Below, in pieces: positions 4,702 through 13,155 of a stretch of 35,108 bases of DNA; the stretch's first letter is position 1, and every line of letters starts with the position of its first letter. The notes below the pieces were generated by a model. The model had not been told where the DNA came from. It did no database searches and saw only the letters and a program-made list of their open reading frames with translations. The DNA lies in NCBI GenBank assembly GCA_015064745.1, contig SVRR01000021.1:1-35108 (forward strand). The letters are read 5' to 3'. Made by a program: the position numbers and the translations under genes. This stretch comes from Oscillospiraceae bacterium. GTDB lineage: Bacteria; Bacillota; Clostridia; Oscillospirales; CAG-272.

Positions 4702-5592
4702 TTAGTCGTCCTTGCTCCAAGTACCTCTCGCAACAGCAACGCAGTTCTCGTCGTTCTGAATCAGGGTCATTTTCTTTACAAGAACGTCAGTTGCGATCTT
4801 AACCATTGCTTGACCAATGGTGGGCGAACAGCCGTGCGGCGGGAAGCCCGAATATTCGTTGGGGCAGTTCATCGCCCAAGCACAGCCGGGGGTAAGACCT
4901 GCTTCATACCAATAGTTACCCTTGTTCGTGCATCTGCCGTCCATCGCCTCGTAGCGATCGGGGGCAACGAGCTCGGGATACGTGCCGTAGATAAGACCCG
5001 TCTCGCGGAAGCAAGCGTGTCCGCCGCCCGCACCCGTCTCTGCCCATCTTTCAAGCACCTTGTAGTCCTCATCGGTGAGCATGGAGAAGCCCTCGGGGTC
5101 GTCTTTGGCATGAGCTAAAATCTTATCGGCATCAAGATCGACAAGACCGATCTTGGTCGTCATAACGCAATACTGCTTTCTCGTATATTCGACAGCGCGG
5201 CAGAAGAAATCGAGAAACGCGTTATTACCGCCATGCGAGGAAACGAGCAGGATCTTGCGGAAGCCGTTTCTGCCGATCTCATCACACAGCTCGGTGAAGA
5301 TCTTCAAAAGAAGTTCGGGGCTGAGTCCAATATAGCCCGCACGTTGCTTTTCCCAAGGTTTTTCCATTTTGTGAGCGCACATAACGTCGCCCAGCCAATA
5401 AGCGCAGGGGAATACGACAGCCCCCGTCTTTTCGGCGGCAAGACGCACGACCGCCTCACCTTTAAGACTATCCGTACCGACGGGCAGGTGCTCGCCGTGC
5501 ATTTCAAGACACCCGACCGGAATAACGCAGAGTCCGCCCGCCTTTTCGATTGCGGCAGGAAACTCCTCTTCTCTCAAAAACTCCCAACGCAT
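4702..5592 (-). CDS. Creatininase-family amidohydrolase
   Basis: The product has 296 residues. It shows the creatininase-family metal-binding signature: LEMHGEHLPVGTDS near residues 29-42 (candidate ligands Glu30, His32, Asp41) and SSHGGNNA in the middle. Family members are Zn/Mn enzymes that hydrolyse cyclic or linear amides, such as creatinine or formamidopyrimidine intermediates, so the substrate here is unknown. The start is ATG 5592 because GAGGAGAA lies just upstream and the N-terminus MRWEFLREEEFPAAIEKAG is typical. A longer in-frame extension would have to start upstream of the promoter. Its stop is one base before the acyltransferase start. Confidence 0.9.
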   Translation of the reverse strand: MRWEFLREEEFPAAIEKAGGLCVIPVGCLEMHGEHLPVGTDSLKGEAVVRLAAEKTGAVVFPCAYWLGDVMCAHKMEKPWEKQRAGYIGLSPELLLKIFTELCDEIGRNGFRKILLVSSHGGNNAFLDFFCRAVEYTRKQYCVMTTKIGLVDLDADKILAHAKDDPEGFSMLTDEDYKVLERWAETGAGGGHACFRETGLIYGTYPELVAPDRYEAMDGRCTNKGNYWYEAGLTPGCAWAMNCPNEYSGFPPHGCSPTIGQAMVKIATDVLVKKMTLIQNDENCVAVARGTWSKDD

Positions 5593-5622
5593 AGCAAAAT
5601 TCTCCTCGTGTTTACACAAAAT

Positions 5623-5675
5623 TTCGGCAGTGCTTCTGCCGAAGACAGTATAACACATCCCTGATGCTTTTGCAA
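5623..5675 (-). promoter_or_regulatory. Promoter with palindrome at the start site, for the creatininase-acyltransferase operon
   Basis: On the minus strand, TTGCAA (5670-5675) and TATACT (5647-5652) are 17 bases apart. A perfect 8-bp palindrome with a five-base centre (5623-5643, arms TTCGGCAG/CTGCCGAA) covers the expected start point near 5640, which is a typical place for a repressor operator. It could also be a hairpin in the 5' leader. Confidence 0.72.
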
Positions 5676-5712
5676 GTAGTTTCACCTTTTTTCTTGTTTT
5701 TTTATAATTTTG

Positions 5713-5741
5713 TTGACAAGCCAAGTCGTATATGGTAAAAT
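5713..5741 (+). promoter_or_regulatory. Sigma-A-type promoter of the PAP2 phosphatase gene
   Basis: TTGACA (5713-5718) and TAAAAT (5736-5741) are 17 bases apart with an extended TG at 5733-5734. The start codon at 5771 follows with a GGAGGA site. Confidence 0.85.
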
Positions 5742-5770
5742 GATATCGAAGAAAACACCGGGAGGAAATC

Positions 5771-6472
5771 ATGAAGAAAAAAAGCGTCATTCTCTTCTCC
5801 GTCTCTGCCGCGCTTTTCGTACTTTTCGCGGTATTCACGCTCATCACCGCCGTTTGCGACAAAGCGGTCGTCGCCTATGCCGAAAATATAGAAGCCGAGC
5901 TTGGCTTCGCAAGCGTTAACCAAGCGATATTTACAGCACTCGGACAAAACGAGCTTTGGTACGAGCTTACCGAGTTTCTCGGTGTCATCGCCCTCGGCGT
6001 CGTCGCCGTTTTTGCTTTGCTCGGACTTTATCAGCTTATTACGAGAAAACAGCTTTTCGCCGTTGACCGCGAGATCTTGCTTCTCGCCGTTTTCTACGCG
6101 CTCGTTGCCTTTTTCTACGTCTTCTTTGAAGCGGTTGTCATCAACTACCGCCCCATTCTCGTTGACGGTGCGCTGGAAGCGTCCTACCCCTCCTCACACG
6201 CGATGCTCGCCTGCTCAGTTTTTTTGAGCGCTCCCTTCGCCGCACGGCATCTCGTTGAGAGCCGCGCGCTCCGCTTCGCCGTCTGCGGCCTCGGCACGCT
6301 CCTCGCCGTGTTCACCGCCGTGGGAAGACTCCTCGCGGGGGTGCATTGGCTGACCGACATCATCGGTGCCCTCTTGCTCTCCGCCACCCTCGTTACGCTT
6401 TACGTCGCCGCGCTTGCCCTGCTTGACGAAAAAGCACCGCGCAAGCATCACCACCGCCATTCGCATTCATAA
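5771..6472 (+). CDS. PAP2-superfamily membrane phosphatase
   Basis: The protein has 233 residues and about six hydrophobic segments. It contains the three phosphatase motifs of the PAP2 superfamily in shortened form: NYRP near 125-128, PSSH at 140-143 and GRxxxxxHxxxD with Arg186, His192 and Asp196. Such enzymes dephosphorylate lipid pyrophosphates or phosphatidate, for example undecaprenyl pyrophosphate, at the membrane surface. The C-terminus is a histidine-rich tail (KHHHRHSHS), which is unusual and may bind metal. It has its own promoter and appears to be a single-gene unit. The exact lipid substrate cannot be told. Confidence 0.9.
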   Translation: MKKKSVILFSVSAALFVLFAVFTLITAVCDKAVVAYAENIEAELGFASVNQAIFTALGQNELWYELTEFLGVIALGVVAVFALLGLYQLITRKQLFAVDREILLLAVFYALVAFFYVFFEAVVINYRPILVDGALEASYPSSHAMLACSVFLSAPFAARHLVESRALRFAVCGLGTLLAVFTAVGRLLAGVHWLTDIIGALLLSATLVTLYVAALALLDEKAPRKHHHRHSHS

Positions 6473-6483
6473 AAGCCCTCGTT

Positions 6484-6547
6484 GCGGAGCGCACGCTCCG
6501 ATCGTTTTACCGGAAAGCCGCGCGACGCAAATGCGTCGCGCGGCTTT
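6484..6547 (+). terminator. Two tandem terminator-like hairpins after the PAP2 gene
   Basis: A small stem (CGGAGCG/CGCTCCG, about 6485-6500) is followed by a short T-run. A second, very strong GC-rich stem has arms 6514-6529 and 6532-6547. The second also lies just beyond the stop of the leftward TIR gene and may stop that transcript, although no T-run follows it on the minus strand. Confidence 0.7.
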
Positions 6548-6550
6548 GGT

Positions 6551-7657
6551 TTATTTTTCTCTCGTTGCGTGAGGACAAAGAAAATTGTTGTAGAATTGAT
6601 GCTCCAAGCGGAAAAATCCTTGACGGGGACGTTCGGGGAGAGAAAGGTAAATGCGCCTACCGTTCAAGCTGTCCGACACCGTCGGATTCATACCCACGCT
6701 CTCAAAGACCTCCATCAGCTTATAGTGTTGCGTGTTGTTGGGCGCGTCCACGATGAACTTAAACTCGGTGCCGAACACCTTATGTACAGGCACGTAGAAA
6801 TTGATGCATCCGTGCGTTAACACCTCACCCTCGGGACCAAGCGTTCCCTTAGGATAAAACCGTCCATTTTCCACAACGTAATTCAGAACGATACATTCAA
6901 GGTTGTTTGCGTCCAAGGTTTTCGCGTCGTAGAGGGCGCATTCTCCGCCGCTGACAGGACAGCGGCGCCCCTCCAAAACGGGCTTTCCGCGCAACGCCTG
7001 ACAATGCTCTCCGTCCCCATTATCGGGGTGGAACATACCGAAATTCACGATCAGCGTGCCGATCTTGCAATCGTTGAAATCCATGGCGTTGGTGTCGAAG
7101 ATCTCGCTTTCAAGGCGCACCATAACCGTTTCCACACGGCTGTTGAGAATAGCCTTGAAATCGGCTTTTGTCATCTCGGGAAATTCATCCTTGAAGATCT
7201 CGGCGTAAATAGACATTTCCTCTAATGCCGCCAACACCTCATCCAGGGTATAGCAAGCGGGGAGATACTGTGAAATATGCGAATTGTTTAATACGTCGTG
7301 ATCCGAATGTTCCAGAGACATCACGTCGTCGGGATCCCACAAAACGATAGGCATTCCCAGTCCCGAAAAATACCCTACCTCATAATTGACCCAATCGGAG
7401 CGTAGCGAATTTTCCGTAATGATGACAACGCCCGCATAGCAGTTGAGACATTGCTCAATGCGGTCTTGAAAATACTGACCGCCCTCCAAGAAATCACGAT
7501 CGTAAATAGGGTTGAGCTTTCTCTCGATCATGCGCTCGGCAAGCGTGTTTAAGAGTGTCGTATCGTATTCCTTGTTGGAATGCGAGATAAAAATTCCAAA
7601 AAGCCGTCTTTCCGCTTCGGTCGGCAAGTGTGTCGATAAATTAAATTTCCCTTCCAT
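6551..7657 (-). CDS. TIR-domain protein with an unrecognised Cys-containing C-terminal domain (predicted NADase effector)
   Basis: The protein has 368 residues. Residues about 18-115 form a TIR domain: strand A motif FGIFISHSNKEYD, a BB-loop-like IYDRDFLEGGQYF, strand D VVIITENSL, and SDWVNYEVGYF, in which Glu93 is at the catalytic position of NAD-cleaving TIRs. Known bacterial TIRs hydrolyse NAD+ or make cyclic ADP-ribose signals in antiphage systems. The remaining 220 residues match no family I recognise. They contain His218-Cys219, Cys233 and Cys240 (RRCPVSGGEC), a possible metal site. From about residue 160 on they align with the neighbouring gene product, for example YVPVHKVFGTEFK. AGGAAG lies seven bases before ATG 7657. 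It is the downstream gene of a two-gene operon, 58 bases after its paralogue. No membrane segment or signal peptide is seen. Confidence 0.85.
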   Translation of the reverse strand: MEGKFNLSTHLPTEAERRLFGIFISHSNKEYDTTLLNTLAERMIERKLNPIYDRDFLEGGQYFQDRIEQCLNCYAGVVIITENSLRSDWVNYEVGYFSGLGMPIVLWDPDDVMSLEHSDHDVLNNSHISQYLPACYTLDEVLAALEEMSIYAEIFKDEFPEMTKADFKAILNSRVETVMVRLESEIFDTNAMDFNDCKIGTLIVNFGMFHPDNGDGEHCQALRGKPVLEGRRCPVSGGECALYDAKTLDANNLECIVLNYVVENGRFYPKGTLGPEGEVLTHGCINFYVPVHKVFGTEFKFIVDAPNNTQHYKLMEVFESVGMNPTVSDSLNGRRIYLSLPERPRQGFFRLEHQFYNNFLCPHATREK

Positions 7658-7715
7658 TTTTCATCTTCCTTTCGCTGAATATCCGCACATTGTTTGTTGG
7701 CACCCCCCGCGATGC

Positions 7716-8771
7716 TTACTGCGGGAAGAGATAATCGGCAACCTCGCCGATATCCAAGGCAGGATCAAAAGCAAAGGCTTTTGCGTGTGGAAAATTCAAG
7801 CTAAAATAAAGGCGATCGCGAGATATGTGCGGATCTGTGCCCTTTACAAAATTAGAGGCAAAAAGAATTTCAAGAATTTCAGGCGTCAATCCTCCGTGAG
7901 GGCGAAGGAAGGGCTTAAAGTTCACGCCAAACAAGCGATGAATCGGTAAAACAAGCTCAAACATGTATTCCGCAAAAACCTCGTCGTCCGCAAGCTTGCG
8001 GCTGTAAAGACGGTTACAGGTAAACGTCTCCGGATAATCGATGGGTGTCGGTGACATTTCGCCGCGATAAGGCATCAGCTGTGCGTTGAGAATGTTTTCG
8101 CTGCCAAAGGAAAGCAGCTTCGCGGCACACGTAATACCGTCGCGCAGCACCGCCTCAAAGCCTTCCTCGGTGATAAGACCTTCGCCGGTTTCTTCGGCGT
8201 ATTCCTCCATCGCCTCTTCAAAATCCTCGCGCATAATGTCGAAGCGAATGATCATCTTGCGGTAATCGAGACGCTTGCCAACGTAACGGTTCAACTCATT
8301 TTGCTCAAAAAACTCATTTTTGGCAAGAGTATTACGGAAGCTGTTGGAGAGAGTGCGAAGCAAATCGCCCTCGTTTAATAAAACGTTGCATCTGCCCAAA
8401 GGTGACTGCGCGAAGCCAACGGGCGTACCGTGGGGTGCGTAAGGAACCACGATCTCGCGGCGAATGGCTTGTAATTTCCCGACTTGATACCACAAATGAT
8501 TGCGCAAGGTGCGGTTTTTCGGGTCATCAAAGCCCTCACCGATCAAAAGGAGATAGCACCCGCAGGTAGCAAGCAGCTCGCTCACCTCGGAAATGTACAA
8601 ATTTTTGATCACGCGGTGAAAGGACAGCTCGTTCCGCACACAGTTATACCCTGCCGCGGAAAGAGACGCGAAAATGGCATCCGCCGTTTTTGCGTCCTCC
8701 GCAAAATAGGTCAGCACCGTCGTTCCGCAATATTCGTTGATATTAAACGGCTCGTTTTGTAAAAGCTCCAT
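7716..8771 (-). CDS. Degenerate TIR-like paralogue of the downstream TIR protein (predicted inactive partner or sensor)
   Basis: The product has 351 residues when started at ATG 8771, which has GGAG nine bases upstream and about 37 bases of leader after the promoter. GTG 8804 and ATG 8786 are alternatives without a good site. The N-terminal 110 residues can be laid over the neighbour's TIR domain: TVLTYFAEDAKTADAIF for strand A and helix A, GCYLLLIGEGF for strand D, and HLWYQVGKLQ for the catalytic segment, where the neighbour's NYEVGYFSG has Glu and this protein has Gln96. The C-terminal half aligns with the neighbour: LITEEGFEAVL with MTKADFKAIL, LPIHRLFGVNFK with VPVHKVFGTEFK, and RLYFSL with RIYLSL. 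It lacks the neighbour's cysteine cluster. Its function is unknown; a sensor or inhibitory partner of the active TIR is inferred from pairing only. Confidence 0.75.
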   Translation of the reverse strand: MELLQNEPFNINEYCGTTVLTYFAEDAKTADAIFASLSAAGYNCVRNELSFHRVIKNLYISEVSELLATCGCYLLLIGEGFDDPKNRTLRNHLWYQVGKLQAIRREIVVPYAPHGTPVGFAQSPLGRCNVLLNEGDLLRTLSNSFRNTLAKNEFFEQNELNRYVGKRLDYRKMIIRFDIMREDFEEAMEEYAEETGEGLITEEGFEAVLRDGITCAAKLLSFGSENILNAQLMPYRGEMSPTPIDYPETFTCNRLYSRKLADDEVFAEYMFELVLPIHRLFGVNFKPFLRPHGGLTPEILEILFASNFVKGTDPHISRDRLYFSLNFPHAKAFAFDPALDIGEVADYLFPQ

Positions 8772-8814: not shown

Positions 8815-8856
8815 ATTATACCATGGGGTCAAACATTTGTCAACATTTTTTGACAA
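8815..8856 (-). promoter_or_regulatory. Near-consensus promoter of the TIR operon with an inverted repeat over the -35 box
   Basis: On the minus strand TTGACA (8838-8843) and TATAAT (8815-8820) are exactly 17 bases apart with an extended TG, a full consensus. A perfect 7-bp inverted repeat with a six-base centre (8837-8856, TTGTCAA/TTGACAA) overlaps the -35 box and could be an operator. Confidence 0.85.
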
Positions 8857-9324: not shown

Positions 9325-9411
9325 TGGTGCGGGTTAAAGGACTTGAACCTTCACAGCCTTGCGACCATAAGAACCTGAATCTTACGCGTCTGCCAATTCC
9401 GCCAAACCCGC
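9325..9411 (-). tRNA. tRNA-Leu (anticodon CAG), CCA encoded
   Basis: The 87-base minus-strand sequence folds as a class II tRNA: acceptor GCGGGTT/AACCCGC, D stem GCG/CGC, anticodon stem TAAGA/TCTTA with loop TTCAGGT (anticodon CAG at 9375-9377), a long variable arm TGGTCGCAAGGCTGT, and T stem with loop TTCAAGT. The CCA end is encoded. It has its own promoter and terminator. Its 3' end has an imperfect inverted copy at 9255-9296, and the TIR operon lies on that side, the usual side for integrated elements. Confidence 0.97.
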
Positions 9412-9446: not shown

Positions 9447-9475
9447 AGTATAGCATGAATTTGAGCGTTTGTCAA
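9447..9475 (-). promoter_or_regulatory. Promoter of the tRNA-Leu gene
   Basis: Minus-strand TTGACA (9470-9475) and TATACT (9447-9452) are 17 bases apart with an extended TG, about 36 bases before the tRNA 5' end. Confidence 0.88.
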
Positions 9476-11736: not shown

Positions 11737-12745
11737 GTGAAGGACTTAACGCAAGGCAACGTATATAAGACCTTTTTTCTCTTTGCTCTCCCTTTGGTAT
11801 TTGCGGGATTTTTAATGCAGGCGTACAACCTCATTGATACCGTCATCGCAGGACGCTTTCTCGGTGAAGCGGGGCTTGCCGCGCTTGGCGCGACAAGTGA
11901 GCTGCTCATCCTTACCTCGTCTACCTTTTGGGGCGTAAACGCGGGGCTCGGCATCTATACGGCATCTCTCTTCGGCGCAAAAAAAATACGCAGACCTCAA
12001 AAACAATTTGTATACTACCTTTCTCATTCTCTTCGGCACGATGCTCACCATCGCCGTCCTGCTCGTTCTGTTCCGTGAGCCGATCTTTGATTTTCTGCGT
12101 GTGGACGACGCCATCCGCGATGAGGCGCGCAAATATTTTACCGTCTACATGCCGGGGATCGCCTTCATCGTAACCAATGATTTCGGGCTTTGCACCCTGA
12201 ACGCCCTCGGTGCAAGTGAGTTTCCCTTCAAGATGTCGCTTCTCTCCATGGCGCTCAACATCAGCGGCAACCTGCTCTCGGTCGCCGTTTTTGACCTCGG
12301 TGTCCTCGGTCTTGCCATCTCCTCGGTAACAGCCGCCGTCATCGTAGACATTTTCTATTTCTTCAAGATACGCAAATGCCTCGGCGAGCTTGGCGTTTTA
12401 AAGGGTGTTCCCTTCCGCCCCTCGCTTCCGCATCTTAAACACAGCGGCATTTACGCTTTGCCGCCGGGCTTCCAACAGCTCGTCATGTACATCTCGTCCT
12501 TTCTCATTCTCCCCCTGATCAACGGCGTGAGAGACGCCGCCTCTGCCGCCTATATCGTCATTTTACAGCTGTACAGCGTGGTCGCCGAGGTGTACCAAAA
12601 TTCCTCGAAAACCGTATCCAATTACGTGGCGCAAGCTTCGGGTGCGGGAAAAACGCATCTTTATACGAGGGGTATTCGGGCGGGGCTTCTGCAAGCCGTT
12701 CTGTTTGCCATTCCCCTCGTCACCCTCTTCGGCGTTTTCCTTGTC
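11737..12745 (+). pseudogene. MATE-family efflux transporter, frameshifted and lacking its C-terminal part
   Basis: From ATG 11737 the product begins as a normal MATE pump (MKDLTQGNVYKTFFLFALPL, then YNLIDTVIAGRFLGEAG). After SLFGAK the frame is lost at a run of eight A's (11979-11986). With seven A's the reading continues as KKYADLKNNLYTTFLILFG into the frame that stays open to 12766, so one extra A is the lesion. The second defect is truncation: transporter-like sequence ends near 12740, after about 330 of the usual 440-460 residues. The last codons before the stop at 12766 are antisense to a sugar-kinase gene. The gene is therefore almost certainly inactive. MATE pumps export drugs and metabolites using Na+ or H+ gradients. 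Confidence 0.85.
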
Positions 12746-13155
12746 AAGTCCGTCGAGAAGCAATAGGTACCCAAGGTGGAACAGATCACAATCCAAGCTA
12801 TCCACGTCCACCGTCTCGGGGGTCAGCTCGGAGCAAGCGCCTCTCATGGTAAAGAAGGTGCGCTCACCCGTCGATTCCAGCGTCATGACGTCGGTAAAAG
12901 AGGTAGGGGTCTTCGTCCGCGCGAGGAAAGAAAATCAAGAATAAAATCTCACTTCTCATCGTTACCGACAAGTCCGCGCGCCTCTACCGCGACGTCGGGC
13001 GCAAGCACCTTCAGATCCACACCGCTGTTGCACACCGCGCCACCCACGGCACGGCCCGTGCCCGTGATGGTCACAAGCATTCCCTTTTCGGGATAGCGGT
13101 CGATCATTTTGATCTCGTCAAGCAGGAGCGTTCCGCATAACGCAACCTTTTTCAT
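12746..13155 (-). pseudogene. PfkB-type carbohydrate kinase remnant
   Basis: The gene starts with an AGGA site and ATG 13155. It gives a good PfkB N-terminus (KKVALCGTLLLDEIKMID, then GTGRAVGGAVCNSG and GLVGNDEK). A stop codon follows at 12949-12951, where relatives have Gly (one base change, GGA to TGA). After that come a shortened stretch, one inserted T near 12905, and then clear kinase sequence again in another frame (SFTDVMTLESTGERTFF and LFHLGYLLLLDGLD). It breaks off near 12745, where transporter sequence of the opposite strand begins. The C-terminal ATP-binding half is missing. The intact kinase would have phosphorylated a sugar; the AraC regulator upstream may once have controlled it. 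Confidence 0.85.

Follow-up and report, generated by a model that had tools for sequence, protein, structure and literature searches.

Two minus-strand genes, U (upstream) and D (downstream), form the locus described here. They lie in a window of 35,108 nucleotides, the whole stretch of DNA analysed, from an Oscillospiraceae bacterium (GenBank assembly GCA_015064745.1, contig SVRR01000021.1). A first-pass annotation of the window had them adjacent, co-directional and behind one consensus promoter; the ORF coordinates confirm this arrangement, and the promoter preceding U agrees with the consensus at 12 of 12 positions (Table 1). The gap between the genes is 58 nt. Downstream of D, a plus-strand hairpin is likely the terminator of a convergent PAP2 gene (assigned with Pfam). 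The window's own genome (1.70 Mb in 41 contigs, 89.9% complete) holds a single match each for U and D.

Table 1. Coordinates of the U/D locus features within the window.
Feature	Position	Strand	Basis or remark
U, upstream gene, 351 aa, degenerate-TIR protein (best reading)	8771..7716	minus	ATG start
D, downstream gene, 368 aa, TIR protein with catalytic-type Glu intact	7657..6551	minus	
TIR-like region of U, about residues 18-130	8382..8720	minus	Homologue TIR_2 matches start at residues 18-20; borders in the window inferred from the alignment
U codon at the TIR catalytic Glu position (Gln96 in the window)	8484..8486	minus	Column of 8 homologues
C-terminal region of U, domain matching no library, with PxHx3Gx3K (P276, H278, G282, K286)	7719..8318	minus	
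TIR domain of D, about residues 19-147	7217..7603	minus	TIR_2, solved-TIR profile matches and model secondary structure; outer border inferred
D Glu93, catalytic-type Glu of WxxxE (WVNYE)	7379..7381	minus	8/8 homologues; aligned with WTNYE
C-terminal region of D, domain matching no library, with PxHx3Gx3K (P290, H292, G296, K300)	6554..7216	minus	
Promoter match TTGACA-17-TATAAT, sigma-70-type, TG preceding the -10	8843..8815	minus	Upstream of U, 12/12
Hairpin of 15 pairs with T-rich tail	6514..6547	plus	Between D and the convergent PAP2 gene
tRNA-Leu	9325-9411	minus	About 550 nt upstream of U

The match of D to Pfam TIR_2 (residues 22-97, E 9.8e-7) scores 29.7 bits and exceeds the cut-off of 28. 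Searched against solved structures, a D profile matched 28 distinct sequences up to E 1, with TIR chains at the top: 7uwg (E 4e-11) and 8g83 (E 7.8e-11), the latter named NAD(+) hydrolase AbTIR. In both chains the motif WTNYE is aligned with WVNYE of D, whose glutamate, Glu93, is retained in all eight D homologues. The presence of this glutamate was also demanded for classing TIRs as active in a published survey (PMC9092222). Judged by its sequence, D is a TIR domain protein of the catalytic type and a putative NADase. Compared with the AbTIR-type NAD+ hydrolases (7uwg, 8g83 and 7uxr), which score best for its TIR domain and share the aligned WxxxE glutamate, D carries an extra region of roughly 220 residues at its C-terminal end and is accompanied by a pseudo-TIR partner gene. 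In an AlphaFold2 model made from eight sequences (mean pLDDT 73.2, pTM 0.71; pLDDT below 50 at residues 55-62 and 242-248), the TIR part consists of alternating strands and helices and the C-terminal part is mixed alpha/beta. The TIR part also matches the PADLOC models PDC-S66 (E 8.3e-9) and SAVED-TIR (E 3.6e-5); however, these matches are confined to it, and neither a SAVED domain nor another known sensor domain was found in D with Pfam and PADLOC.

The TIR relationship of U is fainter. TIR_2 is matched by five of the eight U homologues, from residue 18-20 and always below the cut-off of 28: those of L008, L009, L010, L011 and L030, with E-values of 0.011, 8.7e-6, 0.0032, 0.00032 and 0.043, respectively (26.7 bits for the best). 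The U proteins of the window, L028 and L029 gave no TIR_2 match; for that of the window, NCBIfam, PADLOC and PHROGs likewise gave no match, and the sole Pfam match (YnfE, E 0.14) is a chance one. None of the eight matches a PADLOC model, and the whole-U profile found no TIR chain among solved structures. Alignment A3 compared with the U alignment (A4) gave a weak match in the TIR part (E 8e-4, probability 24%). We call U TIR-like solely on the consistency of the sub-threshold TIR_2 matches and on a Y/H-x-[VI]-G anchor. The [VI]-G of this anchor follows the catalytic Glu position and fixes it in the alignment: the eight U homologues carry Q, Q, Q, F, T, S, L and L there, and none has glutamate. 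Because of this column and the five sub-threshold matches, U is best read as a degenerate TIR. The earlier description of one active-looking and one degenerate TIR is in keeping with these data: D passes the TIR_2 cut-off with its glutamate present in 8/8 homologues, U stays below it with the glutamate in 0/8. Across homologues U diverges faster than D, and its TIR-like part fastest of all; such change might fit a part that senses or sets partner specificity.

Both proteins end in a region that no significant model match covers in the libraries searched, and several comparisons indicate that the two regions are related. BLASTP aligned the U and D regions of one pair over 63 residues (E 0.002). 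Run with no filters, the U C-terminal profile ranked all eight D proteins (E 1.3e-4 to 0.18) above all 908 decoy ORFs, the first of which appeared at E 0.38; the set held 909 other ORFs, one higher-scoring "decoy" being a fragment of U itself. The reverse test was weaker: the D profile found one U at E 1.7e-4 and seven at 0.07 to 1.1, among the decoys. Aligned with each other, the C-terminal profiles of D (A5) and U (A6) gave E 1.8e-4 and a probability of 48% over 45 columns, in a doubtful register. Finally, the motif PxHx3Gx3K is invariant and equally spaced in 16 of 16 proteins (8 U and 8 D).

The first-pass annotation had proposed a C-terminal region that is common to both proteins and unrecognised. 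This agrees with the kinship found by BLASTP and the U profile, and no library explains the region; the shared motifs given for it fared unequally. The pair VPVHKVFGTEFK/LPIHRLFGVNFK stands and corresponds to PxHx3Gx3K; of RIYLSL/RLYFSL, only the tyrosine is invariant in both families; MTKADFKAIL/LITEEGFEAVL is not upheld, as hhalign places MTKADFKAIL on a different part of U, in an alignment that is itself weak. Searched by sequence against solved structures, the U C-terminal profile gave no match up to E 10, and that of D nothing significant (three at E 1.1). Sub-threshold library matches of the D region were taken as chance: TraH (E 0.13) and DUF433 (E 0.15) in Pfam, TIGR00153 (E 0.055) and phrog_24577, a virion structural family (E 0.02). 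Seven cysteines and histidines cluster in this region (window:6554-7216) and are invariant in 8/8 D homologues: C197, H218, C219, C233, C240, C255 and C361. The U counterpart has no invariant cysteine across its eight homologues. The C-terminal region of D may therefore hold a metal site that its sister protein lacks.

We collected eight distinct full-length pairs: those of the window, L008, L009, G205, G278 (whose contig is also L010), G043 (L011), G444 and G316. In all eight U precedes D on the same strand, with gaps of 58, 51, 17, 13, 26, 18, 12 and 12 nt, so the pair is conserved as neighbours in other genomes, as had been suspected. In a sample of 196 genomes of the window's family, the 2 that carry full-length D are also the 2 that carry full-length U (the window's own and G043), and three further D matches are TIR-only; in a sample of 394 genomes of its order, the genomes with full-length D and those with full-length U are likewise identical (5: own, G205, G278, G316 and G444), and ten further D matches are TIR-only. 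The homologues thus do co-occur, which speaks for the earlier proposal of a joint system. A species-genome collection scanned with the D alignment yielded four loci, all with U directly before D, and the 22 genomes of the G278 family gave only three pairs, all already known. Beyond the order, the D C-terminal profile matched only the window's own genome in a class sample (1/381), and the U C-terminal profile only the same genome in a phylum sample (1/299); these samples, searched for D only and U only, partly overlap the earlier draws. Six of the eight pairs belong to genomes of one order, and L008 and L009 are each labelled Oscillospiraceae bacterium. The hosts are presumably gut bacteria ("Roe_deer_Colon" for one record). 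The pair is rare and patchy.

Genes around the pairs resemble housekeeping genes by eye and vary by locus, with at least six different upstream neighbours. Among ten neighbours, Pfam recognised HD_3, an M18 peptidase, a Clp protease, an AraC regulator, GNAT_C, PAP2, a trypsin/PDZ protein and a TIM barrel, and left two without a match; seven more or repeated neighbours comprise two 4-alpha-glucanotransferases, an M18 peptidase, two ApbE, a radical SAM protein and a GFO/IDH oxidoreductase. The genes adjoining D in G043 and G205 (L035:10001-10852 and L032:8306-8704, both minus) match neither Pfam nor PADLOC. PADLOC, run on ten neighbours, gave nothing for nine; the exception, the trypsin/PDZ (HtrA-like) protease of the G278 locus, matches the protease parts of the RT-Protease_XI and LmuA models (best E 8.6e-14), which we take as generic protease similarity. 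Neither a defence gene nor an integrase was recognised near the eight pairs, by eye or with Pfam and PADLOC on the neighbours, and the enrichment near defence genes that the first-pass annotation had raised is not seen. Its emphasis on the adjacent tRNA likewise loses its force: the stretches around the seven other pairs contain no tRNA, and we rejected tRNA-linked insertion on this ground. No neighbourhood is conserved beyond G444/G316 and the glucanotransferase before U in L008/L009. In G1219, which encodes a 78% orthologue of the oxidoreductase neighbouring the window's pair, the contig ends about 136 nt behind this orthologue.

Several observations bear on how the pair spreads. The G043 pair is nearest to that of G278, from another family, and not to that of the window, from its own (65% versus 45% identity for D, 49% versus 29% for U). 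This suggests that the pair was transferred between families, although ancient duplication and loss could also account for the likeness. The pair has a GC content of 0.49-0.50, five neighbouring genes 0.54-0.59. Taken with the patchiness and the varied neighbours, these are signs of lateral spread, and the pair seems to behave as a transferable accessory system. No relatives were found in viral contigs (searched with alignments A1, A3, A4 and A5), in plasmids and phages with the window's D, or in plasmids with the C-terminal region of the L008 D. Within the set of eight pairs, U identities parallel D identities (r 0.956, Mantel p 0.0003; small n), as expected if the two genes are inherited together.

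The immediate upstream context in four genomes raises a reading outside defence. In L008 and L009 a 4-alpha-glucanotransferase gene (4726-7212 and 5453-7962; Pfam) comes before U with a 3 nt gap and a 4 nt overlap, respectively, which suggests co-transcription of U with a sugar enzyme; in G444 and G316, U starts 12 nt behind an M18 peptidase gene. Since U directly follows such genes, the pair may serve in housekeeping or stress, as TIR proteins with a regulatory or metabolic task (e.g. NAD+ sensing or carbohydrate-linked stress) that are transcribed with their housekeeping neighbours. We consider this unlikely, since the upstream neighbours change with the lineage, the presence of the pair is patchy even within family and order, and it has apparently passed from one family to another.

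The two closest copies, G444 and G316, differ with dN/dS of 0.118 for D and 0.134 for U (between other copies the ratio is saturated or nearly so), which indicates that both genes are maintained under purifying selection. This bears on a toxin/antitoxin-like restraint, where D alone would be an active TIR NADase, silenced by the pseudo-TIR U until U is lost or displaced. A two-gene unit with the non-catalytic gene first, related domains that would allow mixed assembly and the patchy spread of the pair are all compatible with such a role. However, U equals D in size and is itself under purifying selection, and no DNA-binding domain of an autoregulating antitoxin was found in it; we give this reading a low probability.

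The closest known parallel is the type I Thoeris system of Staphylococcus aureus. It likewise has two TIR proteins in one operon with catalytic residues needed in one: ThsB1 binds the phage major capsid protein and recruits ThsB2, and immunity is lost when the putative catalytic residues are mutated in ThsB2, though not when they are mutated in ThsB1 (PMC12578639). The two systems differ in that ThsB1 keeps a glutamate at the site (E318) and U has lost it, a comparison limited to this site. Moreover, Thoeris has ThsA, and none was recognised by eye beside the eight U/D pairs (in G278 and G316 the contig stops no more than a few kb away). We searched six pair genomes (all except L008 and L009) for the STALD domain and obtained 0/6; control genomes were equally silent, so the result does not show absence. 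We rejected filing the pair under Thoeris because no effector was recognised beside the eight pairs and none of the eight U proteins matches a PADLOC model. A Thoeris-like signalling pathway, in which D would make a cyclic ADP-ribose signal upon triggering by U and an effector elsewhere in the genome, or an unrecognised one, would respond, has two points in its favour: several ThsB models of PADLOC match D, though solely in the TIR part (best E 6.6e-10), and Sau-Thoeris employs a TIR pair (PMC12578639). D also matches the type III Thoeris model (NCBIfam ThcB4), far under the cut-off at 16.8 of 220 bits. With no effector recognised beside the pairs, within the same contig limits, we regard this pathway as improbable.

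We propose instead that U and D may form a two-protein TIR switch, a reading to which we give slightly less than an even chance. D would be the enzyme, its TIR domain splitting or cyclising NAD+ once TIR domains come together, and U a catalytically dead TIR sister with the same type of C-terminal domain. Through the shared domains U would bind D and set when it fires; most likely, U would recognise a phage component and then recruit or order D. Firing would deplete NAD+ and stop the infected cell, by death or dormancy. By analogy, the mode of action would resemble that of ThsB1 and ThsB2, with U as trigger or scaffold and D as enzyme. Given that the two proteins are built alike and that no ThsA was recognised close to the pairs, the effector would be D itself. 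Against the switch stand the lack of any recognised defence gene or integrase near the pairs, of relatives in viral contigs and, for D, in phages or plasmids, together with the weak reverse C-terminal profile test and the housekeeping neighbours (glucanotransferase, M18 peptidase) directly before U in four genomes.

A more specific proposal, which we put forward tentatively and with limited confidence, is a stand-alone immune system: duplication of a TIR protein would have produced a sensor without activity and an active NADase, joined by a new C-terminal domain that in the enzyme is rich in cysteine and may bind metal; no gene for a further effector would be involved. Among the matches listed for the open PMC literature (titles and starts of abstracts; closed journals lie outside it), none describes a U/D pair, and we regard the pair as a good candidate for a bacterial immune switch of two parts that has yet to be described. 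An open question in TIR immunity is how a non-enzymatic partner can switch on a TIR enzyme; staphylococcal Thoeris is a worked case (PMC12578639). A minimal pair with a common architecture, seemingly without an extra effector, would permit direct tests of what the dead partner does; the pair also brings a C-terminal domain that none of the libraries searched describes.

Some further observations were made in passing. In other genomes of the order, proteins of about 400 aa (L004, L005, L018 and L021) match the TIR domain of D within their residues 267-369; a different N-terminal region precedes their TIR, and they resemble D in the TIR part alone. Elsewhere in the window, a strong promoter-like site (9447-9475, minus; 11/12) lies ahead of the tRNA-Leu gene. 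On the plus strand, a gene that by eye reads as a MATE-type transporter (11737-12766) is split into two ORFs (11737-12078 and 12008-12766) that overlap but differ in frame, the result of a frameshift or of an assembly error.
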